Positions 7,873 through 36,012 of a DNA stretch of 64,000 nt are shown piece after piece. Position 1 is the first letter of the stretch; each line of letters starts with the position of its first letter. This DNA comes from Chelativorans petroleitrophicus (GTDB lineage Bacteria; Pseudomonadota; Alphaproteobacteria; Rhizobiales; Rhizobiaceae). The notes under the pieces are model-generated. The model saw only the letters and a program-made list of their open reading frames with translations. It searched no databases and was not told where the DNA came from. The stretch lies in assembly GCF_025398195.1 (NCBI RefSeq), contig NZ_JAODNV010000020.1, positions 1-64,000 of the forward strand, given 5' to 3'. Made by a program: the position numbers and the translations under genes.

Positions 7873-8127
7873 TCAGCCATCGCACGTCCGCGCCTGCTCC
7901 CGCATCACGGCATAGTCGCTCAGCATCTCCATGATTGCCGAGCCTTCCGGCAGCAGAACCAGTTCCACTGCCGCCGATTCCTGGAAGTCCTCGCTGTACT
8001 CGACGACCGGTGGGCACGCCGCCAGGCCCTCGACGTCAGAAGAGACCGTCGCGCAGCCTGTCAGCAAGCTCGTGGTGATCGCGAGGACGGCGAGCCGCCG
8101 CTTCCAGCATCCGACGTTGGACGTCAT
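7873..8127 (-). CDS. Rz1-like outer-membrane spanin (lipoprotein)
   Basis: An 84-residue frame from ATG 8127 has an N-terminal signal with lipobox LLTGC (lipidation Cys about residue 24), followed by a short polar periplasmic part. Its first 92 bases lie inside the next gene upstream in another frame, the classic nested arrangement of Rz/Rz1 spanin pairs. It is unusual in not being Pro-rich. Function is inferred from architecture: two-component spanins fuse inner and outer membrane in the last step of phage lysis. Confidence 0.6.
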   Translation of the reverse strand: MTSNVGCWKRRLAVLAITTSLLTGCATVSSDVEGLAACPPVVEYSEDFQESAAVELVLLPEGSAIMEMLSDYAVMREQARTCDG

Positions 8128-8293
8128 TGACCTTCTCCGAGGTTTCGAGGCGTTCCGCCAGCCGTCCCGCACGCTCGCCGGAGCGCCGGAGTGAGAGCAG
8201 GAACAGAAGTGCGGCGAGTGCGATGGCGCCGTAGCGCAAGGCCGCCCGCATCCACGGGCTGGCGACGATCCCGGTGAACAGAGCGGCGATCAT
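8036..8293 (-). CDS. Rz-like inner-membrane spanin
   Basis: An 85-residue protein with one N-terminal transmembrane helix (ALRYGAIALAALLFLLSL) and a charged helical periplasmic tail rich in Glu, Arg and Leu that could form a coiled coil. Its ATG overlaps the endolysin stop (ATGA at 8290-8293), and its 3' part overlaps the lipoprotein frame. The order endolysin, Rz, nested Rz1 matches a Gram-negative phage lysis cassette. Confidence 0.6.
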   Translation of the reverse strand: MIAALFTGIVASPWMRAALRYGAIALAALLFLLSLRRSGERAGRLAERLETSEKVNDVQRRMLEAAARRPRDHHELADRLRDGLF

Positions 8294-8964
8294 CGACGCC
8301 CCCGCTTCCAGTCGTCGATGCGGGCGTAGATCGTCACAGCAACGCCGGCGAGCGCCACGGCGATGAACACCCAGCGCAGCGTGTCGAGATATGGCACGAG
8401 CGGCAGGACGGCGGACTGCGTCTCGGCCAGGACGTTCTGCGCCACCTCAACGCCGGCGGCGCCCAGCGTCGCCACGCCTGCCGCGCCGCTGCCCTTCATC
8501 GTGCGGCTCTGCGCCAGGGCCTCGCGCGCGGGCGCCGTTTCAGCGGCGAACGCCGTCGCCTGCACCGGGAACCGCTCGCCCCATTGCCGAGCAGGACCGA
8601 GGTCGATGTGCATGAAGCCCGAACGGGGATAGTAGCCGAAGCCGAGAAAGCCGACGGCTCGGGCAGCGGCCTCGAAGGCGACCGGATCGTGGTTCGACAT
8701 GGCGATGTCGAAGGCCGTGCCGTCCATGTGCTTTGAGCGCGGCGCGCCGCCGACGGCCCGGTTATGCGCCGGACTGCGGTAGGCCGAACGGACGATGAGG
8801 GGCTTGCCAAGCCGATCGCGCAGCGCCTGGAGCTTGTCGAGCGCATCTTCGTTGATCCGCAGGGAGCCGCTGCCTCGGCAGGCGATCTCAGCGGGGGAAA
8901 AATCCTTCCAGCGCCACGAGCGCTCGGGCACATCGCGCCAGTGTTTGTAGGTCATTGTCGTCAT
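8290..8964 (-). CDS. Endolysin: peptidase M15 with C-terminal membrane anchor
   Basis: A 224-residue protein. The first 130 residues form a peptidase M15 (VanY/M15A-like) zinc D,D- or L,D-carboxypeptidase domain, with the family segments LIVRSAYRSPAHNRAVGG, SKHMDGTAFDIA (zinc His and Asp) and SGFMHIDLG (second His). The last 60 residues contain one transmembrane helix (LRWVFIAVALAGVAVTIYA). In phages such enzymes cleave peptidoglycan cross-bridges. The C-terminal membrane segment is common in alphaproteobacterial relatives and may control timing. It precedes the two spanin genes. Confidence 0.85.
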   Translation of the reverse strand: MTTMTYKHWRDVPERSWRWKDFSPAEIACRGSGSLRINEDALDKLQALRDRLGKPLIVRSAYRSPAHNRAVGGAPRSKHMDGTAFDIAMSNHDPVAFEAAARAVGFLGFGYYPRSGFMHIDLGPARQWGERFPVQATAFAAETAPAREALAQSRTMKGSGAAGVATLGAAGVEVAQNVLAETQSAVLPLVPYLDTLRWVFIAVALAGVAVTIYARIDDWKRGRR

Positions 8965-9038
8965 GGCAGGTCTCCAGGCACAAAAAAGCCCGCTCCTCGA
9001 CGAGGGCGGACGGTTGTCTGATAGGTCGGGCGGATGGG

Positions 9039-9326
9039 TTAAGGCGTCGGTCCGAAGAGCTTCAGCTTGATGGCGATGCCGGCCATCAGGGCGAGCAGGA
9101 CGCCGGTGGTGATCAGCCGCACGGCGGTCTGGACGGCCGTCTGTTTCGCGAGCCGGAAACCCGCGAGCAACGAGCGAAGATCACGGATGTCCTCGGCGGC
9201 ATCCTGGCCATCGAGGCCGACCTCATGCAGGGCGCGCCGCGCACCCGTCTCGGCTGCGCGTGCCAGCAGCGCCTCGAACTCGGTCTCGGACATGCGGAAC
9301 TGCTCGTTCGCTTGCGGCGGCGTCAT
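9039..9326 (-). CDS. DUF6127-like phage protein with one membrane segment (holin candidate)
   Basis: A 95-residue protein. The N-terminal 60 residues are helical and polar (MSETEFEALLARAAETGARRALHEVGL), and one transmembrane helix follows at about 66-88 (AVRLITTGVLLALMAGIAI). It resembles DUF6127, found in alphaproteobacterial prophages just upstream of the endolysin. Its position and membrane helix make it a holin candidate (inference). It lies directly after the head-closure gene, where tail genes would be expected. Confidence 0.55.
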   Translation of the reverse strand: MTPPQANEQFRMSETEFEALLARAAETGARRALHEVGLDGQDAAEDIRDLRSLLAGFRLAKQTAVQTAVRLITTGVLLALMAGIAIKLKLFGPTP

Positions 9327-9378
9327 AGCGGTTCTCCCGGAGAGTCTGGTTTTGGCTCGCGGCTTTGCCGGTGGCCGC

Positions 9379-9726
9379 TCAGGTCGCCACGCCGGACTCG
9401 CACAGCAGGGTGATGAAGCGGCGGCGGCGCTCCATGTCGGCGGCGGTGCGAATGTTGTAGACGGTGCCTGAACGTGTCTCGATCAGTCGCCAAGTGGGAG
9501 TGATGGTGGCAGTCTCGGTATCGAAACGCACGATTATCAGCGCCGGCTGAACGTTTTGCAGGCGTGCGGCAATGACGGTCTCGCCGCCTTTGGAGAGTAG
9601 AATGCAGGCGTCGCGCTCGAACTGTGGCACCCACTGGCCATAGGTGCCGCCATAGCCATCATCGATCTCCTCGCGCTTTTCGAGGCGGACGCGGTCGCGC
9701 AGGGAGTTGGCGGTGATCCGGGCCAT
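9379..9726 (-). CDS. Phage head closure (head-tail adaptor) protein
   Basis: A 115-residue protein of the HK97-type head-closure family. It begins with RITANSLRDRVRLEKREEIDDGYGG and ends with GTVYNIRTAADMERRRRFITLLCE, the usual pattern for these stopper proteins that sit under the connector and bind the tail. Its ATG overlaps the connector stop (TGATG at 9724-9728), so translation is coupled. It is the last recognisable morphogenesis gene before the lysis genes. Confidence 0.85.
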   Translation of the reverse strand: MARITANSLRDRVRLEKREEIDDGYGGTYGQWVPQFERDACILLSKGGETVIAARLQNVQPALIIVRFDTETATITPTWRLIETRSGTVYNIRTAADMERRRRFITLLCESGVAT

Positions 9727-10295
9727 CAGATCGGGCTTCTGCGGTAGGGTGCGATCAGGGCATGGACGGTGCGGTCAATGGCAACATCGATGCTGGTGTC
9801 TGCACCATCGAACAGGCGCTGGACGATGAGCAGGATGGCCTGGCGGATGGGCTCCGGCACGCCGGCCGCCGCGCCATAGCCGGCGGTGAAGATGATCGAG
9901 ACGGCATCCGCGCGACGGAAGGTAGCCGGCCAGGATTGGCCTGACCGCCGGGTGACATAGGCACCGCGCGCGTCGGCAAACAGATCGTAGACGCCGGTGT
10001 CCAATGTCTGCTGCACATTGTCGCCGTCGAAGTAGCTGACGCTGTCGATCGCGGTCACCGGCGCCAGCGGCAATGGCAGGTGATCGGCAAAGCGGCCAAA
10101 CTCCTGTCGCCAGGTTTGGGTAATCAGCGCCCGCCCGAGAATGCCGGACCAGCCGTCGAGATATGCCGTCGCCGCCTTGATCTGAGCGGTGATCAGATCG
10201 TCCTGGTCATCGTGATCGACGCGCAGATGGGCCTTGGCCTCGGCCAGCGACACCGGCATGGTCGCGGGCGCAACCGTGCGGACGGGAGCGAGCAT
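9726..10295 (-). CDS. Phage head-tail connector protein (HK97 gp6-like)
   Basis: A 189-residue protein. Its N-terminal half has the hallmark of gp6-like connectors: VSLAEAKAHLRVDHDDQDDLITAQIKAATAYLDGWSG. It continues with the beta-rich LPLAPVTAIDSVSYFDGDN and ends with AILLIVQRLFD. Such proteins form a ring under the portal. It belongs to the structural block running from terS. Confidence 0.85.
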   Translation of the reverse strand: MLAPVRTVAPATMPVSLAEAKAHLRVDHDDQDDLITAQIKAATAYLDGWSGILGRALITQTWRQEFGRFADHLPLPLAPVTAIDSVSYFDGDNVQQTLDTGVYDLFADARGAYVTRRSGQSWPATFRRADAVSIIFTAGYGAAAGVPEPIRQAILLIVQRLFDGADTSIDVAIDRTVHALIAPYRRSPI

Positions 10296-10372
10296 GGCTG
10301 TCTTCCAACAGTTTGATGAACGGGGGGTGGCCAGAATCTCGGCGCTGCCGACTGTCTGGCCCCTCTGACCGA

Positions 10373-10759
10373 TCAGGCAACCGGCGCGTCGTGGGGATGG
10401 CCGAGCGCAAAGATCGCACCCGCGGCGATCGACGTGCCGGAGGTTTTGGTGATGACGGCACGAATGTAGCGCTTGTTGCCCTTGTAGCCCTGCTTGCAGA
10501 CCGTGTCGGCTTCGAGCGCTGCCGGTAGAGTGCCCTGGAGGTCGGCTGCGGCAACGTCGCTGAAGTCGCCGTCGTCCGTGGTGTCGGCATGCTGCAGCTT
10601 CACGTCGAACACGCCGTCGCCGGCAATCGCCCCGGTGGTGATGATCAGCGTTGCCGCGTTGTAGCCCTGCAGATCGGCATGGCTGCCCTTGGTGGTGGCC
10701 GTGACCACGGCCGGAACCAGAGACGCAACCAGGCTGAGGCCGGAGATACCGTCCTTCAT
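10373..10759 (-). CDS. Small phage structural protein, head decoration type (uncertain)
   Basis: A 128-residue beta-rich protein (HADLQGYNAATLIITTGAIAGDGVF, LQHADTTDDGDFSDVAAADL, KRYIRAVITKT) placed between capsid and connector. Proteins of this length, place and composition in alphaproteobacterial siphophages are annotated as hypothetical or minor capsid proteins. A capsid-decorating role is inference from position; I recognise no enzymatic motif. Confidence 0.5.
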   Translation of the reverse strand: MKDGISGLSLVASLVPAVVTATTKGSHADLQGYNAATLIITTGAIAGDGVFDVKLQHADTTDDGDFSDVAAADLQGTLPAALEADTVCKQGYKGNKRYIRAVITKTSGTSIAAGAIFALGHPHDAPVA

Positions 10760-10826
10760 GACAGGAGTCCTTTCGATGAATGGGAATTGTGAAGAGACGG
10801 GCAGCCGGAGCCGCCCGCCATGTGGA

Positions 10827-12101
10827 TCAGGTGCTGATCTTCAGCAGCTTGAGCGCCTCGAAGTTGACCACGCCGCCGCCGACGCGCTTGGTGGTGTAGA
10901 ACAGCACGTTCGGCTTGGCGGTGTAGGGATCGCGCAGGACGCGGATGCCGATGCGGTCGACGATCAGATAGGCGCGGCCGAAGTCGCCGAAGGCGACGGG
11001 AAAGGCATTGGCCGCCACCGCCGGCATATTGTCGTCGGTATGGACCGGCTTGCCGAGGATGGTGGCCACCTGTGCAGGGCCGGAGGGTGGCGCCCAGACA
11101 TAGGCGCCCTCGGCGTCCTTGAACTTGCGCACCGTGTTCATGGTCGCATCCGACATCAGCCAGGAGGCCCCGTTCCGGTAGCCGGATTTCAGGGCATAGT
11201 AGAGGTCGATCAGGCAATCGGCGGGATTGGCCGATGCGGTTGCCGCAACAAAGCCTTCAGCCTTGCCTGAAGCGACGAAGCCGATCTTGCCCCAGGCATG
11301 GGAGGCATTGGCCACCGTGTCATAGGCAAGGATGCCGCGCGGCTTGTTGATGCCGTCGCCATGGGCAAAGGCAGCACCCTCCTGCTCGGCGAACTCGATC
11401 GCCACTTCCTCGGCCAGCCATGCGGCAAGATCGATGCGGGCATCGTCGAGCGAGGTCTGCGTGGCGCCGGGCATGGCGTAGATCTCGCCGGTATTGATGG
11501 CGATCTCGCGCAAGGTCGGCGTGGCGGTGCCGGGACGATCCTGTTCCTCGCCAACCCAGCCGGAAGTCGCCCCGCCCATATTGACCAGCTTCTTGTAGGT
11601 GCTGGTCGAGATCGAGATGGTGCGGGCGAGCGAGCGGATGGTGGAGACGGTGCCGAGCACCCGGTCGATCCCGGCCTCGGTCTCTTCGGGCACCAGATAG
11701 CCGCCGTCAGGATCGGACTGGGTGGTCAGCTTGGCCTTGACCTCGAGATCACGCAGGCCGGCATCGACGCCGCGGCGGAAGAAGCGGTCGAAGGCCTGGG
11801 CATGTTCGGCCTTGTCGGGGTCAGCCGGGCCACCCACCCCGCCGACCTTGAGCGCTGCCAGCGCGGCATTGGTCTCGTCGAGGGCCTTTTGCAGGGCGGT
11901 GATCTCGGCATTGATGCGGTCGACCTTTTCGGTCTGGACCACATCGGCCATGCCGGCCCGGATGTCGGCGAGTTCCTTGTCGCGCTCGACCTTGAAGTCC
12001 TCGAAGGTCTTCTGCAGTTCGGCCAGGATTTTGGTGGCATTGCCGGAATCGGCGCGCACGCCGACGATCCCGCGCGCACGCGGGGTGAGTTCGATACCCA
12101 T
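10827..12101 (-). CDS. Phage major capsid protein, HK97 family
   Basis: A 424-residue HK97-fold capsid protein. The first 120 residues are a coiled-coil delta/scaffold domain (ILAELQKTFEDFKVERDKEL and DETNAALAAL), probably removed by the neighbouring protease. The capsid domain follows, with DPDGGYLVPEETEAGIDRVL, ATQTSLDDARIDLAAWLAEE, EGAAFAHGDGINKPRGIL and the C-terminal FGDFGRAYLIVDRIGIRVLRDPYT. Size and order (portal, protease, capsid) are canonical. Confidence 0.95.
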   Translation of the reverse strand: MGIELTPRARGIVGVRADSGNATKILAELQKTFEDFKVERDKELADIRAGMADVVQTEKVDRINAEITALQKALDETNAALAALKVGGVGGPADPDKAEHAQAFDRFFRRGVDAGLRDLEVKAKLTTQSDPDGGYLVPEETEAGIDRVLGTVSTIRSLARTISISTSTYKKLVNMGGATSGWVGEEQDRPGTATPTLREIAINTGEIYAMPGATQTSLDDARIDLAAWLAEEVAIEFAEQEGAAFAHGDGINKPRGILAYDTVANASHAWGKIGFVASGKAEGFVAATASANPADCLIDLYYALKSGYRNGASWLMSDATMNTVRKFKDAEGAYVWAPPSGPAQVATILGKPVHTDDNMPAVAANAFPVAFGDFGRAYLIVDRIGIRVLRDPYTAKPNVLFYTTKRVGGGVVNFEALKLLKIST

Positions 12102-12111
12102 CTCGGGTCTC

Positions 12112-12981
12112 CTATGATCTGATGGTGTCGATCAGCCGCTGCAGGGCGGCGGCATTCAGTTCGGGATTGTCGCCTGCATCGCGCGCGGCGGAAGGCTGGC
12201 CTGCATCACGCGTGGCCGAGCCGATCAACTCCGAGAGCATCTCGGAGCGCATGGTGCGGGTGAAGCCGGCCTTCGCGAGCGCGGCCTCGGTTTGCCGGCG
12301 TGCCATCAACCGCCGGTCTGTGCTTTTGGCATCGCCGGAAGGCGCTGCAACGCCATCGTCGACGGCATCGGCAAAGCCATATTCGACGGCCTGCGCTGCC
12401 GTCATGAAGGTCTCGGCATCCATCAGCCGTTCGATGCCGACGCGATCCATGCCGGTGCGGGCCTCGTAGATGTCGGCAAGTGCCGCATCGAACTGCTCGA
12501 ACAGGCTGGCGGCCTCGCGCAGGTCATGGCGGTTGCCGATGACCAGACCCCAGGCATTGTGCACCATCATGAAGGAGCCGAGCCCCATGCGGATCACATC
12601 GCCGGCCATGGCGATGATGGACGCGGCCGACGCTGCCCAGCCCAGCACCTCGACGGTCACCTTTGCCGGGTGCGTACGCAGTAAATTGTAGATGGCGATG
12701 CCCTCGAACATGTCGCCGCCGGGCGAGTTGATGCGCACGATGACGTCGCGATTGCCGATCGAACGGAGCGCCGCCGAGATGCGCTTTGCCGTGACGCCGC
12801 CGCCTGTCCAGCCATCCTCGCCGATGACGTCGAAGATGGAGATGGTGGCGTCGGCGTCGGCACCGGGCGCAGCGGCAAAAGGGTGCTCTGCCCATTTCGC
12901 CAGCACGTCGCTCGGCGCATCCCACTGGTAGTTCTGTGGGCGAGCCATTGTGGGCGCCTCGGGCAGCTGGCGTAGGCTCAT
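12112..12981 (-). CDS. Head maturation protease, ClpP-related
   Basis: A 289-residue prohead protease of the ClpP/S49-like family. ATG 12981 overlaps the stop of the 50-residue membrane protein (TGATG) and is preferred over upstream in-frame codons, which would read low-complexity Arg-rich sequence. ClpP hallmarks are VIVRINSPGGDMFEGIAIYN, the nucleophile region GWAASAASIIAMAGD, and MMVHNAWG with the likely catalytic His. It processes the capsid protein during head assembly. Confidence 0.92.
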   Translation of the reverse strand: MSLRQLPEAPTMARPQNYQWDAPSDVLAKWAEHPFAAAPGADADATISIFDVIGEDGWTGGGVTAKRISAALRSIGNRDVIVRINSPGGDMFEGIAIYNLLRTHPAKVTVEVLGWAASAASIIAMAGDVIRMGLGSFMMVHNAWGLVIGNRHDLREAASLFEQFDAALADIYEARTGMDRVGIERLMDAETFMTAAQAVEYGFADAVDDGVAAPSGDAKSTDRRLMARRQTEAALAKAGFTRTMRSEMLSELIGSATRDAGQPSAARDAGDNPELNAAALQRLIDTIRS

Positions 12982-13133
12982 CAGAGGTTCTCCAGAAGCT
13001 GGAACAGGTATCCGCCGAGCGTGACGCCACCGATGAAGATGCCGAAGTCGAAAGCAGGGCTGATGGCGGCCAGCCCGACAACCGCCATGACGATCAGCGT
13101 CGAGGCCAGTTTCAGCGCACCAAGAAGGCTCAT
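12981..13133 (-). CDS. Small phage membrane protein between portal and protease (50 aa)
   Basis: The frame from ATG 13133 to TGA 12981 encodes a hydrophobic 50-residue protein with two transmembrane helices (LIVMAVVGLAAISPAF and FGIFIGGVTLGGYLFQLL). Its start overlaps the portal stop (ATGA) and its stop overlaps the protease start (TGATG), so the three genes are translationally chained. This coupling on both sides argues strongly that it is real. Function unknown. Confidence 0.75.
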   Translation of the reverse strand: MSLLGALKLASTLIVMAVVGLAAISPAFDFGIFIGGVTLGGYLFQLLENL

Positions 13134-14428
13134 GGTTCGTTCTCCTTTGGTTCAAAATGGTCAGCGTCGGCGTCTCCGTCTGCACTCATGCCACCAGCTG
13201 GTTCGCCCGCCGTGTTCGGCGGCGGATAGAAGACGTCGCCGCCGTCTCGCGGGTTCTGGTCTTCCAGCGCCCGGATTTCGTTCGGGCTCCACACGCCCCA
13301 TTGCAGGCCTTTGACGTAAGCCTCCCAGCGCGCCTTGATGTCGCCCTTGACCAGCGCCGCCCGGTTGAAGCGCGCGTAGAGATCGTCTTCCGCGCCGATC
13401 AGGTCGCGGTTGATCGCCTCTTCCCACATGGTCAGATGGTCCTCGAGCGTCCAGGCGACGAAGCCGATCGATTGCTGCTCGATACCCGTGCCCCAGCTGG
13501 TCGACTTTTCCGTATCGCCGATCATGTGCGGCGGCACGCCGAAGAACATGGCAATGTCGGTGCGGCTGAACTTGCGGCTCTCGATCCATTGCGCATCCTC
13601 GGCCGTCATGGCGATGCGGGCATAGTCCATGCCCTCTTCGAGGATCAGGTTCTTTCCCTCCTGCTCGCCGCCGGAGCGGAACTCTTCGAGCCCGGCCTTG
13701 AGATTGGCGACCGCCTCGGGCCCGAGCTTGTTCGGATGTTTCAATACGCCGCTGACACGGGCGCCATTACGGAAGGTGCTTGCACCATGGTCTTCCATGG
13801 CCAGCGACAGCCCGATGGTCTCGCGGGCGTAGGCAATCGCCGACACGCCATGCACGCCATCCAGCGTCAGCCCGACCAGATGGAACACCTCATCCTGGCG
13901 GAGCCGGATGCGCCGTCCGTCCTGGCGGGTGTAGATGTATTCCAGCGCCAGATCGTCCGTCTGCCTGACCTCGACCCGGTCGGGATGCAGCGGGATCAGT
14001 TCCTGCACCAGTCCACGTGACCGCACGATCATGGCGTAGGCATTGCCGCGCAAAAGCAGATGCGCCTGCAGCATGCGGCGGAACTGCGACGGCGTCTGCC
14101 AGCGGTTCGGCCGTCGTCGCAGCACCGTCCAGATCGGCGTGTCGGAGGCGTCTTCGCGGGTGCGCTCATCCACCCGGCGCTTGATGTGCAGCGGCAATGT
14201 CGCCACAGCACCCGAGATGATGCGCACACAGGCATAGACGGCCGCCACCCGCATGGCGCTGTCGGGCGTCACCGCAGCCCCCGAGGCGGTCACCGTTCCC
14301 GAGCGCAGCGCCTCTTCCAGCTGCTGCGCCGTGGTGATGACGATCCCGCCACCCGCATCCTGGAACGACGCGCGCGGAGATGCGGCCGGCGGTTTTGCGC
14401 CGCCGAACCAGTTCGACCAGAATGCCAT
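13130..14428 (-). CDS. Phage portal protein, HK97 family
   Basis: A 432-residue portal. Diagnostic stretches are AVYACVRIISGAVATLPLHI near residue 75, LLLRGNAYAMIVRSRG, ELIPLHPDRVEV, EVFHLVGLTLDGVHGVSAI, FFGVPPHMIGDTEKSTSWGTGIEQQ and WEAYVKGLQWGVWSPNEIR. The portal forms the ring through which DNA enters the head. It lies between terL and the chained membrane-protein and protease genes. Confidence 0.95.
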   Translation of the reverse strand: MAFWSNWFGGAKPPAASPRASFQDAGGGIVITTAQQLEEALRSGTVTASGAAVTPDSAMRVAAVYACVRIISGAVATLPLHIKRRVDERTREDASDTPIWTVLRRRPNRWQTPSQFRRMLQAHLLLRGNAYAMIVRSRGLVQELIPLHPDRVEVRQTDDLALEYIYTRQDGRRIRLRQDEVFHLVGLTLDGVHGVSAIAYARETIGLSLAMEDHGASTFRNGARVSGVLKHPNKLGPEAVANLKAGLEEFRSGGEQEGKNLILEEGMDYARIAMTAEDAQWIESRKFSRTDIAMFFGVPPHMIGDTEKSTSWGTGIEQQSIGFVAWTLEDHLTMWEEAINRDLIGAEDDLYARFNRAALVKGDIKARWEAYVKGLQWGVWSPNEIRALEDQNPRDGGDVFYPPPNTAGEPAGGMSADGDADADHFEPKENEP

Positions 14429-14448
14429 CGGGTTCTTTCGTCAGCTCT

Positions 14449-16242
14449 TTACAGCATCAGGATGCCGCGGGTCTCATAGACCGAGCGGCCGGCATTGACG
14501 TCGCGGGCCAGCGCCCGCCCGAGCGCGTTGCAGATGGCGACAATGCCGTCGATGCGCTCTCTGGAGCGTTCCTTGTCCGGCTTGATGTTGCCGGCCGGAT
14601 CATGGCGCACGGCAACATTGGAGGCGTTCCAGCGCAGTACGGGATGGCCGCCATGCCAGAGCGAGCGCGACACCGACAGCCGCTCCAGTTCCGCCGTCGG
14701 AGCGGCCATGCTCAAGAAGCCTTGCCCGAACTGCACCAGGTTCAAGCCTTCATCCTGCAGATGCTGGACGATCTCGCCGGCAAAGGTGCGGTCATAGGAA
14801 AGCTCACGCAGGTCATAACGGGAGGCGAGATCCAGAATCTCGGCCTCGATGAAGGCAAAGTCGGTGGCGTTGCCGGGCGTAGCGGTCAGGAACCCCTGGT
14901 CACGCCAGACGTCATAGGGCACGCGGTCGCGCCGCACACGGCGGACTATGTCGTCCTCGGGAATCCAGAACCGGCAGGTGACGATCCATTTGTCGGCAAG
15001 CTTTCCAAGCGCCTCATCCAGTGTCGGCGGGAAGACCAGCACGAAGGCTGACAGATCATTGACCCGGGCAAGGTCGAGCCCGCCAAAACATTCGCGGCCG
15101 AGCAGCTTGTTTTCCATCTCCTCCAGCTCGTGCTTGACGATGCGCCAGTCGGTGGCAGCTGGCAGTCCGCCTTCCTCCCACACGCTCATGTCGAGCCAGC
15201 GCGTGACCTGTTCGGTCCATTCGTTCAGGCGCAAACGCCGGATGGCGTTCTGCTGCGCCGGCATTTCCCTGGCCTCGTCGATCTGCCGCTTCAGGTCATC
15301 CAGCTTCACCGTCACGCCAAGGCTCGGATTGGCCTTCACCCAGACCTTTTCGTCGGTCCAGTCGTCGCCCTCATCGATGGTGGCGATATAGGCAAACCAG
15401 CTGTCCGACGATTCCGTCGGCACCGTGCCTTCCAGCGCCTTCACCGAGAACTCGTGATGCTGGCGGCAGACCGAATGGCGATCATAGCCGGCCGTCGTGA
15501 TCTCGAAGATCAGCGGCTGGCGCCGCGCACCGGTGGCGGTGTTCAGCTTCTGGATGATCTCCGGTCCCGGATGTTCGTGCACTTCATCGACGGCCGCAAA
15601 ATGGATGTTCAGCCCGTCCATCTTGCTGGCGTCCGCCGACAGCGGCCTGAACCAGGACGAGGTCGGCAGCACGGCCAGATTGTTCACCGTGCGTGTGATC
15701 CTCGATTGCAGCGCCGAACTCGCTGCCACCATGCGCTCGGCCTCGCCAAAGACGATCCTGGCCTGATCGCGCGTCGTTGCCGCCGAATAGACATGCGCAC
15801 CGGGCTCGCCATCGGCGATCAGCGCATAGAGCGCCGTGCCGGCCAGAAGCACCGACTTGCCGTTCTTCCTTGCTACTTCGACATAGGCGGTGCGAAACCG
15901 GCGCAATCCATCCTTGCGCTTCCAGCCATAGAGCGAGCCGACGACGAACTGCTGCCAGCCCTGAAGCACGAAGGGCTCGCCGGCCCATTCGCCGGTCGAG
16001 TGGCGCAGATGGCCGAAGAAGTCGATCGCATGACGTGCCGCAGCGCCATCCCAGACCAGGCCGCGTTTTACCCCCACCTTCAGGTCCGCGAGGTGCCGCT
16101 CGCAGGCCAGACGCACCAGCCGGCCGGCGACGATCCGGCCGCCAACCACCGCACGGGCATAGGCTGTAACCGGGCAGGATGGAGCCTTCTTGCCGCCATC
16201 ACCCCGTTTGCGCGAAGCACAGGAACTAGGCTTTGCGGCCAC
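14449..16242 (-). CDS. Phage terminase large subunit
   Basis: A 597-residue terminase motor. The ATPase domain has Walker A-like YVEVARKNGKSVLLAG near residue 120, a Walker B-like stretch HFAAVDEVHEH near 220, and the coupling region. The nuclease domain has GGLDLARVNDLSAFVLV and the late acidic segment. The start is GTG 16242, which overlaps terS by 17 bases. It cuts concatemers and pumps DNA into the prohead with the portal. Confidence 0.95.
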   Translation of the reverse strand: MAAKPSSCASRKRGDGGKKAPSCPVTAYARAVVGGRIVAGRLVRLACERHLADLKVGVKRGLVWDGAAARHAIDFFGHLRHSTGEWAGEPFVLQGWQQFVVGSLYGWKRKDGLRRFRTAYVEVARKNGKSVLLAGTALYALIADGEPGAHVYSAATTRDQARIVFGEAERMVAASSALQSRITRTVNNLAVLPTSSWFRPLSADASKMDGLNIHFAAVDEVHEHPGPEIIQKLNTATGARRQPLIFEITTAGYDRHSVCRQHHEFSVKALEGTVPTESSDSWFAYIATIDEGDDWTDEKVWVKANPSLGVTVKLDDLKRQIDEAREMPAQQNAIRRLRLNEWTEQVTRWLDMSVWEEGGLPAATDWRIVKHELEEMENKLLGRECFGGLDLARVNDLSAFVLVFPPTLDEALGKLADKWIVTCRFWIPEDDIVRRVRRDRVPYDVWRDQGFLTATPGNATDFAFIEAEILDLASRYDLRELSYDRTFAGEIVQHLQDEGLNLVQFGQGFLSMAAPTAELERLSVSRSLWHGGHPVLRWNASNVAVRHDPAGNIKPDKERSRERIDGIVAICNALGRALARDVNAGRSVYETRGILML

Positions 16243-16696
16243 GGTTCAGGAACTCCTCGAACGGATCGCTCGTCTCGGCGGGTTCCGCCATACGGATGCG
16301 CGAGCGGCTCGACGGCGTCAGTCCGAATTCGCTCTCGATCTGCGCCATCTGCGCCAGGCACTTGTTGGCCACAGCCAGGAACGGGTTCTGGATGATGTTG
16401 TCATTCGACGTCTTCACCACAGGGCCACGGCGCTTCACTTCCTGCTCCGCCTCCAGCCAGCGCCGCCAGATCACGACGTAGCGGGCGAGTGCGCCGGCAT
16501 CCAGTTCCGTCATGACACCGTGGCGGGCAAGCAGTTCCGCCATTTCGGTGAACTTCAGCTTGGCGGCTTCATCGAGATGGTCAGGCGGTTCGGGTGTCGC
16601 CACCACCGGCTTCGGCTCGGCCTTGTTCAGGCGATGCGGACGGGCCGTGCCCTTCACCAGCTTCAGATGTGTCGGCAGCGGCTTGCGTCCCGCCAT
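16226..16696 (-). CDS. Phage terminase small subunit, P27 family
   Basis: A 156-residue protein of the P27 (HK97-like) TerS family. It opens with MAGRKPLPTHLKLVKGTARP, the typical basic N-terminus, and continues with the helical core LKFTEMAELLARHGVMTELDAGALARYVVIWRRW and NPFLAVANKCLAQMAQIESEFGLTPSSRSRI. TerS recognises the packaging site and recruits TerL. It starts the structural operon; a cos or pac site should lie nearby. Confidence 0.93.
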   Translation of the reverse strand: MAGRKPLPTHLKLVKGTARPHRLNKAEPKPVVATPEPPDHLDEAAKLKFTEMAELLARHGVMTELDAGALARYVVIWRRWLEAEQEVKRRGPVVKTSNDNIIQNPFLAVANKCLAQMAQIESEFGLTPSSRSRIRMAEPAETSDPFEEFLNRGRKA

Positions 16697-16826
16697 GTCA
16701 AAAACTCCCTGCGCCAGCGTTGCAGCGGCGCCGGCGTCAAAAACAGCAACAAAATGATCGTCTTATCCGGTTGATGATCTCGTCGTTCAGAGCATGACTG
16801 TGATTGCCAGGATGAAGGAAACAGCC

Positions 16827-17057: not shown

Positions 17058-17077
17058 CGCCAACCTCTCCGAAGCCT

Positions 17078-17687: not shown

Positions 17688-17945
17688 TCACGGCCGTCGC
17701 CCCTTCGGGGCGGCGGTTGCCTCGTTGGCACGCCGCATCCGGATGGCCTCGAACAGCCGCCGCAATGTAAAACTGCGCGCGATCGACACCACGGTGAAGA
17801 TCGCGCCCATGGCCATGTTGTCCGCCAGCGTGGTGGACAACCCGAACAGCGGGAACACCAGCATCTGCGTCACCACGGCAATGCCATAGCCGACGGCGAC
17901 ATTGGCGAAAGCCTCCACCAGAGACATGGTGCGGGATTGCTTCAT
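17688..17945 (-). CDS. DUF7220-like small membrane protein
   Basis: An 85-residue protein with two hydrophobic segments (VAVGYGIAVVTQMLVFPLFG and NMAMGAIFTVVSIARSF) and a basic tail (TLRRLFEAIRMRR). It resembles the DUF7220 family seen in prophages. Its ATG overlaps the methyltransferase stop (ATGA at 17942-17945), so the two are co-translated. Function unknown. Confidence 0.7.
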   Translation of the reverse strand: MKQSRTMSLVEAFANVAVGYGIAVVTQMLVFPLFGLSTTLADNMAMGAIFTVVSIARSFTLRRLFEAIRMRRANEATAAPKGRRP

Positions 17946-19333: not shown

Positions 19334-19473
19334 GAGTTTATCCTTCAATTCGCACGTTCATTTTATCGTCGCACCCCCCATGCTCCATTTTGGCCACGCA
19401 TATGTTTTTGGTGGCGCGCGGTCCTGGCAGCAAACTTTCGCTACTTTTGAGGTCCCCGGGGGGTGTTGCGGGC

Positions 19474-19818: not shown

Positions 19819-19996
19819 GGGGCTGATCTCGTCGATAATGCTGATGATGGTGACGGTAGTACTGGAAACGACAACGCCCGCGATGGTTTTCACCGTCGCG
19901 GGCGCGCTGCTCTCCCGAGCATATCCAGAATCTACCCCAAACAAGCCGGTTTTGTCCGTTCGAAAACTGTCCGCCGAACAAAGTTCTACCCGGTTC

Positions 19997-23687: not shown

Positions 23688-24451
23688 GCCGGCAGCCCCC
23701 AGCAGCGTTCCGCCCACGGGCACATCCGGCACTCGTGGAAATCACGGGCCGTGGCGATGCGCGGCAGCAGATCCCCTGCATCCGTCGCCTGAAGGATCCG
23801 CACGGCGCGGTCGCTCATGCGTTGGGCGAGCCCCGCATCGAACGGCACGAGTTCGTGGTGCAGTTCGGCCGTGTCCTTGTTGATCGCGGTGAAGAGCGCG
23901 GGATTGTCGGAGATGCCAGGGACCTGCGCTTCCATGTAGGCCTGGTAGAGGGCGATCTGGGACGCGTAGACGGGCTTCGCGACAACCACGCCCTTGGCCA
24001 CGGTCTCGCGCCAGTTCCTGGCGTTCATCGTCTTGCATTCCCAGAGCGCGGGAACGCCGATGCCCAGCAGCTGGGGCGCGGCGGCGATGATCCCATCGAC
24101 ATGACCGCGGATGCGGCCACCAGCGACCGAGAAGCCGAATTGCTCGCCGTCCGGACGGTTGCCCTTGCGGGTATAGAGATCGAACCCGGCGCCGCGCAGC
24201 CAGCGGATGGCAAGATCTTCGAGCGCGTGTCCGATCTCGAAGATCCGCAGAGACTGGCCGGAGAACTCCTGGCCCTCATCCTTCGGCGCGCCCGCGAACT
24301 CGAATTGCAGAGCGCGCTCACAGCCGTGTCCGAGGCGGGAGCCGCCCAGATAGTCGCGGGCTGGCCGTGTCACTTGATCGGCGGTGAGCGCCCGATCGAC
24401 GGTGGCGTTGACCCGGTCGGCAAAGCTGGGACGGCGGTTATAGTCCAGCAT
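23684..24451 (-). CDS. PD-(D/E)XK nuclease, Cas4/RecB-like
   Basis: A 255-residue nuclease. Motifs are GHVDGII (116-122, metal-binding Asp) and LWECKTMN (ExK, 138-140), followed by the QxxxY helix VYASQIALYQAYM. Four cysteines (C44 and C241, C244, C250 in CRMCPWAERC) match the iron-sulfur cluster arrangement of Cas4/AddB-type enzymes. It is probably a phage exonuclease for recombination or end-processing. No CRISPR genes are nearby, so a CRISPR role is not suggested. Confidence 0.82.
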   Translation of the reverse strand: MLDYNRRPSFADRVNATVDRALTADQVTRPARDYLGGSRLGHGCERALQFEFAGAPKDEGQEFSGQSLRIFEIGHALEDLAIRWLRGAGFDLYTRKGNRPDGEQFGFSVAGGRIRGHVDGIIAAAPQLLGIGVPALWECKTMNARNWRETVAKGVVVAKPVYASQIALYQAYMEAQVPGISDNPALFTAINKDTAELHHELVPFDAGLAQRMSDRAVRILQATDAGDLLPRIATARDFHECRMCPWAERCWGLPA

Positions 24452-25249: not shown

Positions 25250-26953
25250 TCATGCCGCCCTCCCTATGGCTGCTTCGGGCGCGGCATCGGCCGCCCCAAA
25301 GACGAGGGAGCGGATGGCGTCGCGGTTGAAGCGAAAGGCCAGCAGCGCCGATGCCTGGTAGCGGGTGAGCCCGAAGTCCTGCCGGTAATCCGGCGGCAGG
25401 AAGGCGAGCTGCCGGTCGGTGGGCGGCTGGTTCAACCAGCGGCGCGTCTTGTGCGCGCTCTCGTCGCTCTCATGCTCGTTGAGCCAGTCGTCCGCCGCCG
25501 CGAGGCAGACAGTGCGCTCGCCCATCGCCAGCAGATGAGGCCGCTGCTTCTGCAGACCGCCGATGCCGTACCAGCGACCTTTCAGGAAGAAGACACCGCC
25601 CCAGGCATTGAAGCCGTTGGCGATGAGCGCGGCATCGTCGCCGAAGAGATCGCACCAGCGAAAACTCGATCGCTTCAGGAGGTCGATCTCGGACATCACG
25701 AAGTCGCCGAGCGGCGCTGCTTCGCCGCCTTCGGGACGCTCCCAGAGGTGCCCACACAGCGGGCATTCGATAGTGGCGAGCGGCACGATGGCGCCGCAGT
25801 CCGGGCAATCCTTGGTGGGCGCCTCGCCGGAGGGCTCGCGACCGTCCAGGTCGACGTCTTGCTCCAGCGATCCGTGCAGCAGGGTCGACGTGCCGAAATC
25901 GAGCACGATGCAGTCGGTTTTGATGATACCGGGATGCTCCTCGGGCGAGACCGTGCGCAGGCCGCGACCGACCATCTGGATCATGGTCGATTTGTAGGAG
26001 CTCGGCCGCAGCAGCACGACGCAGCCCGTCGGGGGATGATCCCAGCCCTCAGTAAGGACGGCGACATTGACGACGACCCGCAGCTCTCCAGCGGCGTAGG
26101 CGTCGAGGGTCGTCTTCCGGTTGGTATCGGCCATGTCGCCGTGGATCAGCCCGGCGGCGACACCGGCCGCGTTGAAAGCGGCGGTCACGTTGCGCGCGTG
26201 GTCCACGGTCGAGCAGAACACCACCGTCTGGCGCTCGCCCGCCTTTTCCCGCCAGTGGCGGATGACGGCGTCCGTGACCGGCGACCGGTTCATGATCGCG
26301 TCGACCTCGGCCATGTCGAAATCGTCGGCCGTGCGACGCACCTTGGTGAGCTGGTCCTGGACGCCGACATCGATCACGAAGGTGCGCGGCGGCACGAGAT
26401 GGCCGGAGGCGATCAGTTCGCCGATCCGGATCTGATCGGCGACGTTGGAGAACACCGGGCGCAGACCGCGCTTGTCGCCCCGATTGGGCGTCGCGGTGAC
26501 GCCGTAGACCCGGCACTCGGGATTGCGCTGCAGCGCGGCGTCGATGATGCGGCGATAGCTGTCGGCGGCCGCGTGGTGTGCCTCGTCGATCACCAGGAGG
26601 TCAAGCGCGGGCAGCTGGCCGAGATTACCGGCGCGCGCCAGCGTCGGCACCATCGCGAAGGTGACCTGCCCGTTCCAGGACTTCTCCTTCGCATCGACGA
26701 CCGAAGTCGTGATACGGGGATTCACCCGGCCGAACTTACTCCGGTTCTGATCGGTCAGCTCGTCGCGGTGGGCGAGCACGCAGGCCTTGGCGCCCGTGCT
26801 CTTCGGGGTTTCGCCGACCATGCGACCGACGACGCCCGAGAGCATGATCGTCTTGCCGGCTCCGGTCGGGGCTACGCCGAGGGTGTTTCCGTGTTCGCCG
26901 AGCGCGCGGACGCTGCGCTCGACGAACTGCTTCTGGCGGGGACGCAGCAGCAT
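25250..26953 (-). CDS. DEAD/DEAH-box superfamily 2 helicase
   Basis: ATG 26953 begins 567 residues; upstream in-frame sequence is Arg-rich and unlikely to be translated. SF2 motifs are LGVAPTGAGKTIML (I), LLVIDEAHHAA (II), GVTATPNR (III), VVVNVAVLTEGWDHP (V) and MIQMVGRGLRT (VI). After the helicase core comes a zinc ribbon (CPDCGAIVPLATIECPLCGHLW) and a 150-residue domain I do not recognise. It resembles phage helicases that unwind branched DNA during recombination-dependent replication. Confidence 0.9.
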   Translation of the reverse strand: MLLRPRQKQFVERSVRALGEHGNTLGVAPTGAGKTIMLSGVVGRMVGETPKSTGAKACVLAHRDELTDQNRSKFGRVNPRITTSVVDAKEKSWNGQVTFAMVPTLARAGNLGQLPALDLLVIDEAHHAAADSYRRIIDAALQRNPECRVYGVTATPNRGDKRGLRPVFSNVADQIRIGELIASGHLVPPRTFVIDVGVQDQLTKVRRTADDFDMAEVDAIMNRSPVTDAVIRHWREKAGERQTVVFCSTVDHARNVTAAFNAAGVAAGLIHGDMADTNRKTTLDAYAAGELRVVVNVAVLTEGWDHPPTGCVVLLRPSSYKSTMIQMVGRGLRTVSPEEHPGIIKTDCIVLDFGTSTLLHGSLEQDVDLDGREPSGEAPTKDCPDCGAIVPLATIECPLCGHLWERPEGGEAAPLGDFVMSEIDLLKRSSFRWCDLFGDDAALIANGFNAWGGVFFLKGRWYGIGGLQKQRPHLLAMGERTVCLAAADDWLNEHESDESAHKTRRWLNQPPTDRQLAFLPPDYRQDFGLTRYQASALLAFRFNRDAIRSLVFGAADAAPEAAIGRAA

Positions 26954-27573: not shown

Positions 27574-28503
27574 TCAGGCGTTTTCGGAATGGGTGGGTGC
27601 GTCGGAGGTCGGCGCCGTCGCGGCCGGGGGCGGGCTGCGATAGGCCAGCCGCTCGGAGGCGGGCTTCACGGGGCCGCGGATCTTGGCCATCAGGCGGCCG
27701 AGATGCGGCTCCTCGATCAGGTCGAGACGGCCGGATCGATCCTTCGCCGGGAAGTTCCAGGGGTTGATCGTCTGGCAGACGAAGGCACGGTACGGCGCGC
27801 CGGACTCGTCCTTGATCTCCGCCATCGTCAGGACTTCATCGACGATGCCCGGCAGCTCGAGGCCGGTCTTCGAGCCGTCGATCTGCGGCTGGAAGATGCG
27901 TCGATTGAAGTCGTCGAGCTTTTCGTCGAGGATCCCGACGAACCAGACGTTCTTCGCCCGCGTGTGCTGCAGATGCGTGAGCCACGCGACCATCTCGCGG
28001 CCGTGCAGGCCATAGGCGCCGCGGACATCGGGCTTGCCGGTCTTCTCCGAGAACGCCTCGGGCTGCCCCTTGCACCATTGGAAGCAGAGCCGCCCGGCGA
28101 CGGTGATCGAGTCGATGAAGACCGTGTGATAGCGGTCGAGCGAAGCCGGATCGCCGAAGCGCTCGCACACCGCCGCGAAGTGGGCCTCGCTGTAGACCTG
28201 GTCGTCCCGCAGCGCCGGATTGGGGCCGCCGATGAAGACCGCGAAGTCGCGGCACTCGGCCCATGTGCGCGGCCGGACGCTGTCGCCGGACCATCCCTCG
28301 ATGGCGAGGTCGCCCGCCTCCAGGTCGATGAACAATGTAGTGGCGGGGTCGAGCGTCCAGAGAAGCGAGGTCTTGCCGATCCCGGACTTGCCGAAGATCG
28401 TGCCCTTGATGCCGCGCGGCTCGGCGAGCCGCTGATCGGCCGAGATGATTGGCAAGAGGCGAGGAAGGCCGGAGGCCTGACAGGGAGAGGCAGGAATCGC
28501 CAT
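27574..28503 (-). CDS. Sak4-like RecA-fold ATPase (single-strand annealing/recombination)
   Basis: A 309-residue ATPase. The first ATG is at 28503 (overlapping the previous stop as TGATG); a GTG just before it is also possible. Walker A is IFGKSGIGKTSLLWTL near residue 40, then LFIDLEAGD and the Walker B-like HTVFIDSITVAGR near 130, and KNVWFVGILDEK. This is the AAA_24/Sak4 pattern. Together with the likely SSB, helicase and Cas4-like nuclease it forms a homologous-recombination set. Confidence 0.8.
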   Translation of the reverse strand: MAIPASPCQASGLPRLLPIISADQRLAEPRGIKGTIFGKSGIGKTSLLWTLDPATTLFIDLEAGDLAIEGWSGDSVRPRTWAECRDFAVFIGGPNPALRDDQVYSEAHFAAVCERFGDPASLDRYHTVFIDSITVAGRLCFQWCKGQPEAFSEKTGKPDVRGAYGLHGREMVAWLTHLQHTRAKNVWFVGILDEKLDDFNRRIFQPQIDGSKTGLELPGIVDEVLTMAEIKDESGAPYRAFVCQTINPWNFPAKDRSGRLDLIEEPHLGRLMAKIRGPVKPASERLAYRSPPPAATAPTSDAPTHSENA

Positions 28504-28799
28504 CACTTGCCTCCCTTCGCCGCGATCAAGGCGTCGACCGCGATGTCCGCTCCCAGCGCGCCGGCCTTGCGGGCCTCGTCGTGGAGGGTGCGCACCGCGT
28601 CGATCTCGCGGTAGAGAGCCGATGCCTGCTCGTTCAGCCCGATGAGGGCGAAGGCCAGGTCGTCGATCGAGGCCGCCCCGACCGGCTTGACGGTCTCGTC
28701 GTGACGCTCGCCAAGGGCCGGCACCCGGATGGTCTCGGGCAGCTTGTCCAGCCCGAAATGTTGCTCGCGGAGCATCGCGAGCTTCTTCGTGATGCTCAT
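28503..28799 (-). CDS. Hypothetical phage protein, 98 aa
   Basis: A 98-residue helical protein (KLAMLREQHFGLDKLPETIRVP; ALIGLNEQASALYREIDAVRTLHDEARKAG). I recognise no domain. Its start overlaps the stop upstream and its stop overlaps the Sak4-like start, so it belongs to the same early operon. Confidence 0.65.
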   Translation of the reverse strand: MSITKKLAMLREQHFGLDKLPETIRVPALGERHDETVKPVGAASIDDLAFALIGLNEQASALYREIDAVRTLHDEARKAGALGADIAVDALIAAKGGK

Positions 28800-32025: not shown

Positions 32026-32033
32026 TTGTGCGC

Positions 32034-32063: not shown

Positions 32064-32115
32064 GGACTAGATGTATCGCGATAACGAACCCGGCGGACAA
32101 ACAGGAGAACACCCG

Positions 32116-33780: not shown

Positions 33781-34289
33781 TGCCAGGAACAAAGAGAAAG
33801 ACTGACGCCGCGCCATGGCGGGTGGGCGAACGCGACGCGGCGGACGCGAGCGTGGTCACGCAGCTTGCAGCGCTGAAACGAATGACGGTGGTCGAGCTGA
33901 AGGCGAAGTGGGAAAGCATCTTCGGCACCCCCGCTCCGAACAACAGCCGCAGTTACCTCGAGCTGAGGCTCAGCTACCGGGTCCAGGAACTGACCCTCGG
34001 CGGCCTGTCCCGCGAGACGCGGCGGACGCTGGACTTGCTGGCTGACGAAATCGAGGGCCGGGCCGGGCGCAAGACGATCATCGCGGATCCCCGCAACCCC
34101 GTGGTCGGAACCCGCCTCGTGCGCGAATGGGACGGGGTAGAGCACACCGTCACGGTGATGAAGGACGGCTTCGACTGGCAGGGGCGCAAGTTCAAGTCGC
34201 TCTCGGCGGTGGCGCGGGCGATCACCGGCACGCAGTGGAACGGCTACCGCTTCTTCGGCTTGCGCGAGGCGCGGAGGGACGACCGATGA
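33780..34289 (+). CDS. DUF2924 domain protein
   Basis: A 169-residue protein of the DUF2924 family: LAALKRMTVVELKAKWESIFGTPAPNNSRSYLELRLSYRVQELTLGGLS, then RLVREWDGVEHTVTVMKDGFDWQGRKFKSLSAVARAITGTQWNGYRFFGL. DUF2924 genes almost always lie next to a serine recombinase and probably assist it. Overlaps with both neighbours (TAATG and ATGA) show tight coupling. Confidence 0.9.
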   Translation: MPGTKRKTDAAPWRVGERDAADASVVTQLAALKRMTVVELKAKWESIFGTPAPNNSRSYLELRLSYRVQELTLGGLSRETRRTLDLLADEIEGRAGRKTIIADPRNPVVGTRLVREWDGVEHTVTVMKDGFDWQGRKFKSLSAVARAITGTQWNGYRFFGLREARRDDR

Positions 34290-35623
34290 GCCGTCATCAG
34301 GAAGCCGTCGCGGTCGTTCCGCGCCGCCAGCGCTGCGCCATTTATACCCGCAAGTCGAGCGAGGAAGGGCTCGACATGGAGTTCAACAGCCTCGACGCCC
34401 AGCGCGAGGCTTGCGAGGCCTTCGTGACGAGCCAGAAGGCGGAAGGCTGGGCCACCATTCGCGAACGCTACGATGACGGCGGCTTCTCCGGTGGCACGCT
34501 GGAACGGCCCGGCCTGAAGCGCCTCATTCAGGACGTCGAGGCCGGTCTGATCGATGTGATCGTGGTTTACAAGATCGACCGGCTATCGCGCTCGCTGATG
34601 GACTTCGCCAAGCTGGTCGAGATCTTCGACCGCAATCAGGTGACCTTCGTTTCGGTCACGCAGTCGTTCAACACCACGACCTCGATGGGCCGCTTGACCC
34701 TGAACATCCTCCTGAGCTTCGCGCAGTTCGAGCGTGAGGTGATCGGCGAGCGCATCCGCGACAAGGTCGCGGCATCCCGCAAGCGCGGCATGTGGATGGG
34801 CGGTCACGTCCCGCTGGGCTACGACGTGCGCGACCGCAAGCTGGTGGTCAACGAGGCCGAGGCCGCGACGGTCCGGATGATCTTCGAGCGATTCGTCGCC
34901 ATGGGCTCCGCCACGACGCTGGCCAAAGCGCTCGCGGCTGAAGGCGTGCTGAACAAGCGCGGCAAGCCGATCGACAAGGGCTTCCTCTACAAACTGATCA
35001 ACAACCGGGTCTACCTTGGCGAAGCCGTGCACAAGGGCACGGCCTATCCCGGCGAGCACGAGGCCATCATCGATCAGACCCTCTGGGACAAGGTGCATAG
35101 CATCCTGCAGGAGAGCCCGCGCCTGCGGGCGAAGAATACTCGCCGCCAGACGCCGGCCCTGCTGAAGGGGATCATCTTCACCGAGACAGGCACGGCGATG
35201 ACGCCGACCGCGACGAAGAAGGGCACGCGCCTCTACCGCTACTACGCGTCGATGGACCTGATCCGAAACCGCCCGACCGGAGACGCCTCGGGTCCGCTGC
35301 GCTTGCCCGCCGGCATGGTCGAGGATGCCGTCGTCGGCGAAATCCGCCGCATGATCCGCGCACCCGAAGTCGCGGCGCGAACCATAAAGGCCCTGCGCGA
35401 CGAGAGCCCGACCATCGATCAGAAGGCGGTCGTCACGGCGCTCGGCGAGTTCGATCAGCTATGGGCGGCGCTCTATCCGGCGGAGCAGACCCGCATCGTC
35501 CAGCTTCTGGTCGAGCGGGTGACCGTCGGCGAAGACGGCATCGCCGTCGATCTGCGCCACGACGGGCTGGGCTCGGTTCTCCGGGACATGATGGCGCCCC
35601 GCCAGACGGAGGCCCACGCATGA
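34286..35623 (+). CDS. Serine recombinase (resolvase/invertase N-terminus, recombinase domain)
   Basis: A 445-residue site-specific recombinase. Catalytic Ser24 lies in YTRKSSEEG, with the fold markers FNSLDAQREACEAF, IVVYKIDRLSRSLMDFAKL and NILLSFAQFEREVIGERIRDK. The recombinase domain is at about 165-290 (GYDVRDRKLVVNEAEAATVRMIF; NRVYLGEAVHKGTAYPGEHEAIID). The usual zinc ribbon has no cysteines here (GIIFTETGTAMTPTATKKGTRLYRYYASM). It likely integrates and excises the element. The start overlaps DUF2924 (ATGA). Confidence 0.93.
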   Translation: MSRHQEAVAVVPRRQRCAIYTRKSSEEGLDMEFNSLDAQREACEAFVTSQKAEGWATIRERYDDGGFSGGTLERPGLKRLIQDVEAGLIDVIVVYKIDRLSRSLMDFAKLVEIFDRNQVTFVSVTQSFNTTTSMGRLTLNILLSFAQFEREVIGERIRDKVAASRKRGMWMGGHVPLGYDVRDRKLVVNEAEAATVRMIFERFVAMGSATTLAKALAAEGVLNKRGKPIDKGFLYKLINNRVYLGEAVHKGTAYPGEHEAIIDQTLWDKVHSILQESPRLRAKNTRRQTPALLKGIIFTETGTAMTPTATKKGTRLYRYYASMDLIRNRPTGDASGPLRLPAGMVEDAVVGEIRRMIRAPEVAARTIKALRDESPTIDQKAVVTALGEFDQLWAALYPAEQTRIVQLLVERVTVGEDGIAVDLRHDGLGSVLRDMMAPRQTEAHA

Positions 35624-36012
35624 CCGACTCGACGAACACCATCCGGGTCGTCATCCCCCTGACGATCCGCAAACGCAATGGGCGGCCGAAGATCCTGCCG
35701 CCCGACGAGGTGACGGTTCGGAACGGCCGGTCACAAGACCCTCATGTGCTGCGCGCCATCGCCCGCGCCTGGAGCTGGCGGCGGCAGCTGGAAACGGGCG
35801 CCGCTTCCACGATCCAGGACATCGCGGCGGCCGAGAAGGTCTCCGACCGGTTTGTGAGCCGAATGATGCGGCTCGCCTATCTGTCACCCGAGGTGCTTGA
35901 ACACCTCGTCATCAGGCGCGTCCCACCGGCGCTGTCATTGAACGACCTTGTTTCGGTCGCCGACCGGCCATGGGCGGAGCAGATGGGGATAGTGTTTGAG
36001 GGACTGGCTTAA
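35620..36012 (+). CDS. Recombinase-associated protein with HTH-like region (130 aa)
   Basis: ATG 35620 overlaps the recombinase stop. The product has a basic N-terminus (IPLTIRKRNGRPKILPPDE) and a helix-turn-helix-like middle (STIQDIAAAEKVSDRFVSRMMRLAYLSPEVLEHLV). This protein regularly follows DUF2924-type recombinases and may act as a directionality or regulatory factor (inference). Its stop overlaps the convergent merA stop by four bases. Confidence 0.75.
   Translation: MTDSTNTIRVVIPLTIRKRNGRPKILPPDEVTVRNGRSQDPHVLRAIARAWSWRRQLETGAASTIQDIAAAEKVSDRFVSRMMRLAYLSPEVLEHLVIRRVPPALSLNDLVSVADRPWAEQMGIVFEGLA

Follow-up and report, generated by a model that had tools for sequence, protein, structure and literature searches.

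A tail-less, head-forming element of alphaproteobacteria with its own lysis genes on a temperate-phage backbone: a probable tail-borrowing satellite

The stretch analysed here (the window, 64,000 nucleotides) is the beginning of contig NZ_JAODNV010000020.1 of Chelativorans petroleitrophicus, and it carries a mobile element with head, packaging, lysis, replication and integration genes and no recognised tail. We consider this element a probable satellite that forms its own capsids and borrows its tails, with a complete temperate-phage chassis and lysis genes of its own. An earlier note, made from the sequence without database searches, had proposed the gene list, gene order and coordinates (7,873–36,012) of the element. 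These agreed with the matches to PHROG and Pfam families, as did the proposed replication and recombination set, XRE/ImmA switch and serine recombinase; the proposed membrane peptide (50 aa) was without a family match. The minus strand carries the structural and lysis genes, from terS (16,696) down to the Rz1-like gene (7,873). The lysis genes stand directly after head closure, the gap between Hc1 and the DUF6127 gene being 52 bases (within 53 in the earlier note).

The absence of visible tail genes, also proposed earlier, was confirmed by the scans of window proteins: no tail family was found among the 20 proteins compared with PHROGs or among the 20 element proteins and further ones compared with Pfam. 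The region after head closure was compared among 43 distinct head-closure DNA sequences, based on genes recognised by tblastn and not counting L098/L099, L467 and L472. In 40 of the 43, the first recognised gene within 2.5 kb downstream was a lysis gene. Cassette A (DUF6127-M15-Rz/Rz1) was present in 20, cassette B (277-aa protein, phrog_90 endolysin) in 12 and cassette C (phrog_181 endolysin, then a holin-like protein) in 8. The remaining three were a sequence with a tail-gene fragment near a contig end (L097), a decayed copy (L055) and one that was too short. Tail terminator, tube and tape measure genes were seen in none of the 43.

Likewise, 78 tail queries gave no match in 99 redundant rows with a TerL at least 74 % identical, the window included. 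For comparison, 21 relatives by capsid were available (capsid 58–81 %, TerL below 74 %), seven of which had supplied tail queries; at least three tail regions were detected in 11 of the other 14, the exceptions being L021, L029 and L217. Rows with a TerL identity of 42–52 % gave few tail matches even though in several of them long series of genes follow the head genes, so distant tails could be missed. Thirty-nine (39) more proteins, taken from ten members of the element family, were also compared with PHROGs. The 25 families listed (of 45 matched) contained no tail family apart from the lysozyme domain of the cassette B endolysin; in a tailed relative scanned as positive control, a tail terminator, a tape measure and further tail families were matched. 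Gene transfer agents (GTAs) have tail genes and lack integrase and replication genes. The element has an integrase and a replication set and no tail was found, and it was thus not classed as a GTA.

The arrangement recurs across hosts. A capsid search of a species-genome collection gave 40 loci, 15 of which had the same terS/terL-portal-capsid block, a TerL 89.7–97.5 % identical to that of the window and no tail match. These loci were distributed over ten genera spanning Rhizobiales and Rhodobacterales, namely Chelatococcus, Paracoccus, Brucella (2), Chelativorans (2), Falsochrobactrum (2), Labrys, Aquamicrobium, Mesorhizobium (3), Nitrobacter and Gellertiella. Chelatococcus and Paracoccus, the latter from a different order, have structural cassettes 96 % identical at the DNA level to that of the window. 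A TerL search of the 13 genomes with these loci gave further copies, including four in one genome, of which one is cut after terL and another has lost the genes between portal and adaptor. Ten other members measured 20.8–26.1 kb (one of them cut by its contig), compared with 28.1 kb here. Within the window's order, a close TerL was present in 2 of 397 sampled genomes, one of which is the window's own. Its repeated occurrence in many genomes and contigs shows that the arrangement is neither a chance event nor an assembly break, and the recurrence of the junction between head closure and lysis genes without tail genes in other genera is what the earlier note had looked for in a satellite. No close relative was found among isolated phage records, and no description of the element was found in the open-licence literature searched, although an earlier one may exist in print. 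Loci are redundant between collections.

The same backbone also exists in a tailed form. Shinella sp. PSBB067 contains a tailed prophage, complete and about 41 kb long, that has in common with the element the copper-resistance flank, the Rz1-Rz-M15-DUF6127 genes, the replication set and the kind of integration module. Its structural block is different, with a phrog_15 terminase, a phrog_21 portal and a protease-capsid protein, and its tail is full, with a terminator, a tape measure and a fibre-like gene. Such tailed siblings share integration, replication and lysis modules with the element, from which their type of head and complete tail are absent. In a tailed context the M15 protein reaches 96 % identity (L291), the helicase and RecA-like proteins are 97–98 % identical in tailed loci L370 and L377, and the XRE/ImmA switch is common to some siblings (L380: XRE 89 %, ImmA 84 %) and replaced in others.

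The two structural blocks were never found together. Among 80 IMG/VR loci with this M15 gene, neck genes of the element family stood upstream in 9 and tail matches in 67, with both in none and neither in four. For 80 exonuclease loci the corresponding numbers were 23 with the sibling terminase, 2 with the tail-less terminase and none with both, the other 55 ending before either. Classification of 418 redundant loci by markers gave 138 tail-less, 102 sibling-tailed, 178 with neither and 0 with both, and no locus was found that combined the terminase or neck genes of the element family with a sibling-type tail.

The exchanged block has exact borders. DNA homology between window and siblings ends at 9,296 (Shinella), 9,283 (L291) and 9,282 (L303), and resumes at 16,872 (Shinella), 16,867 (L370), 16,863 (L377) and 16,762 (L387, on the same contig as L303). 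Past the right border it is patchy to about 20 kb and then strong, reaching 95 % DNA identity. Between the borders, 7.5 kb of head-only genes are present here compared with 20.9 kb at the same place in Shinella. The relatives with a complete tail block at this junction that the earlier note had weighed against a satellite do exist, in Shinella and in IMG/VR, but their terminase, portal and capsid differ. Its alternative of a prophage with the tail block deleted does not hold as put: since the whole structural block differs, head genes included, the element is not the product of a plain tail deletion.

Trees of the quick kind were used to follow these exchanges, without giving their direction. 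Six label changes between tail-less and tailed were counted on the exonuclease tree (33 rows, one of them, L092, long) and three on the helicase tree (27 rows), three being forced by well-supported branches in each case, and seven were needed on the M15 tree (76 rows). The window and its nearest tail-less row sit inside a mostly tailed group. Judged from these branchings, the two forms have been interchanged more than once, with at least three changes on two backbone-gene trees. Possible traces of the exchange were also found. The last tail gene of the siblings encodes a DUF2793/C1q-like protein of 358 aa. Its final 85–89 residues are found after lysis cassette C in Labrys (L050) and contig L192/L451, and its final 110 residues after head closure in L097. 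We read these C-terminal remnants in three related elements as putative scars of replacement, although a small working protein is possible. A broader proposal, which we put forward tentatively and at somewhat less than even likelihood, is that the head-only cassette is a selfish unit. Recombination at fixed borders would repeatedly turn tailed temperate phages into self-inducing, self-lysing satellites, whose tail-less, DNA-filled heads would take the tails of unrelated phages and cross bacterial orders.

Median ratios of nonsynonymous to synonymous substitution (dN/dS), from 15 members chosen among those at hand, were 0.08 for TerL, 0.08 for the capsid, 0.09 for the portal, 0.15 for head closure, 0.23 for the protease and 0.27 for the adaptor. 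Lysis genes, from 7–9 members, gave 0.12 for DUF6127, 0.11 for M15 and 0.32 for Rz. These ratios place all three groups of genes (head, neck and lysis) under purifying selection. Simple decay, or an artefact, was rejected because members recur in ten genera and the head genes are under such selection. The adaptor and head closure come in types that are exchanged independently of the capsid: in G004b and G007 the capsids are 91 and 89 % like that of the window and the necks only about 36–44 %. Other head modules, at least four in number (capsid 62, 47, 43 and 27–29 %), are also combined with this terminase, with no tail recognised where contigs were readable. The last of these is represented by L098 and L099, which belong to the same terminase clade (80–81 %) and have a wholly different head module (capsid 27–29 %), M15/Rz lysis genes and small unclassified genes between capsid and M15.

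The earlier note had suggested a satellite of the capsid-forming phage-inducible chromosomal island (cf-PICI) type. In the portions of the sources compared here and below, cf-PICIs carry head and packaging genes, need helpers for tails and are called widely distributed (PMC10690885), and they use diverse phage tails (PMC13345588). The element resembles them in its own capsid, protease, portal, head-tail connectors, terminases and HNH gene, in having no tail genes and in the break after head closure (PMC10690885, PMC10803314, PMC13230959). Unlike cf-PICIs, it has its own lysis cassette (an M15 endolysin and spanin-like genes here, lysis genes in other members too), a large replication set, a serine recombinase and a backbone common to tailed prophages. 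PICI control is of the Stl/AlpA type, induced by the helper; the XRE/ImmA switch found in the element may be a further difference. Family members measure 21–28 kb against a cf-PICI average of 14 kb, and cf-PICIs are placed primarily in groups excluding alphaproteobacteria (PMC10803314). Satellites are generally described as having no lysis genes and depending on the helper for release (PMC11389934). The suggestion thus stands as regards the head genes and the recurring tail-less junction, but the cf-PICI label goes too far: the element works like a cf-PICI and is not filed as one given its lysis genes, its replication set and its roughly twofold size.

Own head genes are also a feature of the Vibrio cf-PISP (PMC13230959) and of the Streptomyces satellites Mulch and Flayer (PMC10690885), and the authors of cf-PISP and MulchRoom read these as using helper tails (PMC13230959, PMC10690885). 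Unlike the element, cf-PISP is an episome (PMC13230959), and Mulch and Flayer depend on virulent helpers and are without key replication genes (PMC10690885). An own lysis cassette, as present in the element, is not mentioned for cf-PISP, Mulch or Flayer in the text compared.

The gene content suggests a life cycle for the element. The switch and lysis genes suggest induction and release without a helper: DNA damage would release the element through the XRE/ImmA switch, and the cell would be lysed by the element's own endolysin and spanins. The own terminase and head suggest that the released element would replicate and package its DNA into its own heads. Lacking a tail, the element would depend on another phage to enter a new cell. 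The borrowed tail would be joined to the adaptor/head-closure neck in the cell or after lysis, and its likeliest donor would be a siphophage with an HK97-type neck. He et al. are said to have found in 2025 that tail-less cf-PICI heads are released and gain their tails later.

Several points weigh against a tail-borrowing satellite. A particle, a helper and transfer of the element are so far unseen. A sibling terminase (96 %) is co-resident in 1 of 14 member genomes (G013) and absent from the window's genome (G000), and as the sibling head differs, a sibling tail may not fit the neck of the element. The only tape-measure match in the window's genome, with one family tried, lies in a GTA-like cluster. 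Some copies are decayed (G004a, G004c and a partial copy in G008); in addition, the capsid reading is broken in G004d and the protease of G003b has one stop. No att core was found by eye.

The GTA-like cluster (L288:5384-19818, contig C9 of the window's genome), recognised by eye from gene order, raises the question of whether the host's own GTA rather than a helper phage supplies the tails. Its capsid and adaptor are 50 and 39 % identical to those of the element, but by profile score the nearest outside proteins are those of other loci, several of which have their own tail genes (tailed L015 and L011 for the adaptor; L227, L279 and L025 for head closure), and we regard this source as unlikely. 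Slightly less likely again is a variant of the tail-borrowing explanation in which the tailed siblings are the helpers, induced jointly through the same type of switch and lending their tails. It would account for a backbone with up to 95 % DNA identity in common, for the similar XRE and ImmA proteins of L380 and for the presence of both forms in G013, but the head, terminator and neck of the siblings belong to another type and a close sibling terminase is missing from the 13 other member genomes. A defective prophage, surviving as a remnant after deletion of its tail, appears improbable: in relatives sharing chassis and lysis cassette a tail block stands at exactly this place and a few copies are visibly decayed, but the difference in head genes points to replacement, the same tail-less joint is present in many genera and dN/dS of the head and neck genes is 0.08–0.27. 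Least probable, by a small margin, is that the heads are released and act without tails, for example as vesicle-borne DNA carriers or a host-protective decoy, as the own lysis genes and the failure to find a helper might allow, given that the tail-joining adaptor and head closure are intact, under purifying selection and present in alternative types.

If the element is a tail-borrowing satellite, its lineage would be a satellite by what is missing and a phage by what is kept, with a tailed sister form for comparison. This suggests a direct route from phage to satellite by a single exchange of the structural block, which would explain how such an element can own lysis genes. Natural pairs differing mainly in that block would allow clean tests of tail borrowing and of neck-tail specificity.

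Features of the element are listed in Table 1. Gene calls are from a home-made gene caller, and Rz and Rz1 were named by eye from position, overlap and lipobox, their PHROG families being of unknown function. The element's homology with other members and with tailed siblings begins near 7,880, and the replication and recombination set spans about 20.4–29.5 kb of the window.

Table 1. Positions of the element and its features in the window
Feature	Position	Strand	Family match or remark
Whole element	7873..36012	.	28.1 kb, bounded as far as possible by homology
Rz1-like outer-membrane spanin lipoprotein	7873..8172	-	phrog_26778; same place in other members
Rz-like inner-membrane spanin	8036..8293	-	phrog_27122
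M15 peptidase, endolysin	8290..8964	-	phrog_17373 (3.5e-120), phrog_894 endolysin
DUF6127 protein, first gene of lysis cassette A	9039..9326	-	PF19622, phrog_10540
Head-only structural cassette, replacing the siblings' head and tail block	9300..16760	-	DNA homology borders
Head closure Hc1	9379..9726	-	phrog_25
Head-tail adaptor	9726..10295	-	phrog_442, phrog_40
phrog_5707 protein, perhaps head decoration (from its place)	10373..10759	-	PHROG match
HK97-type major capsid protein	10827..12101	-	phrog_10
Head maturation protease	12112..12981	-	phrog_1684; start from gene caller
50-aa peptide, kept in many members	12981..13133	-	without family match
Portal protein	13130..14428	-	phrog_12
Terminase large subunit (terL)	14449..16242	-	PF20441, PF03354
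Terminase small subunit (terS)	16226..16696	-	PF05119
ParB-like/DNA methylase protein	17942..19348	-	PF01555
HNH endonuclease	19474..19893	-	PF01844, on open reading frame 19474-20013
RuvC-like Holliday junction resolvase	20428..20964	-	phrog_159
AAA_25 protein, probably primase-helicase	21399..23732	-	PF13481
PD-(D/E)XK nuclease	23684..24451	-	PF12705
DEAD/ResIII-type helicase	25250..26953	-	PF04851
AAA_24 RecA-like ATPase	27574..28506	-	PF13479
Switch: XRE repressor-like protein	32071-32433	+	PF13560
Switch: M78/ImmA-like peptidase	32433-33365	+	PF06114
Integration module	33822..36012	+	PF11149, PF00239, PF07508; far end in other members too
DUF2924 protein (integration module)	33822-34289	+	
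Serine recombinase (integration module)	34286-35623	+	
Small protein (integration module)	35620-36012	+	

Upstream of terS, a gene pair on the plus strand (16812-17668), consisting of an 81-aa gene without a Pfam family and a 172-aa DUF3489 gene, is similar in DNA to the tailed siblings. On a short contig (L201:1-5549) the order capsid-adaptor-closure-DUF6127 is present twice in tandem, representing two copies or a misassembly.

A second small tail-less head element is present in the window's genome (L286:5581-14617, contig C16). It measures about 9 kb and carries integrase, HNH, portal, protease, capsid, TerL, Hc1 and Ad1 genes, with no tail recognised. It has head genes, an adaptor and the lack of a tail in common with the window element, but its integrase is of the tyrosine-type family and no lysis genes were recognised. 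It looks like a classic cf-PICI, and nearer to one than the window element does.

The left flank cannot be followed because contig C13 begins at window base 1. An empty integration site was sought through merA in 289 genomes of the class and in plasmids, and was not seen in the 20 loci read. Copper-resistance genes lie beside the lysis end (window 244-7830) and directly adjoin the lysis cassette, in Shinella as well (78 % DNA identity); in other members, arsenic-like or P-type ATPase genes, named by eye, occupy the flank at the lysis end. The metal-resistance flank at this end is a possible cargo zone. At the serine-recombinase end, merA and merF adjoin the element (window 36009-39096); Gellertiella (L067) has the same neighbour, and a similar recombinase end lies beside merA in another genome (L171).

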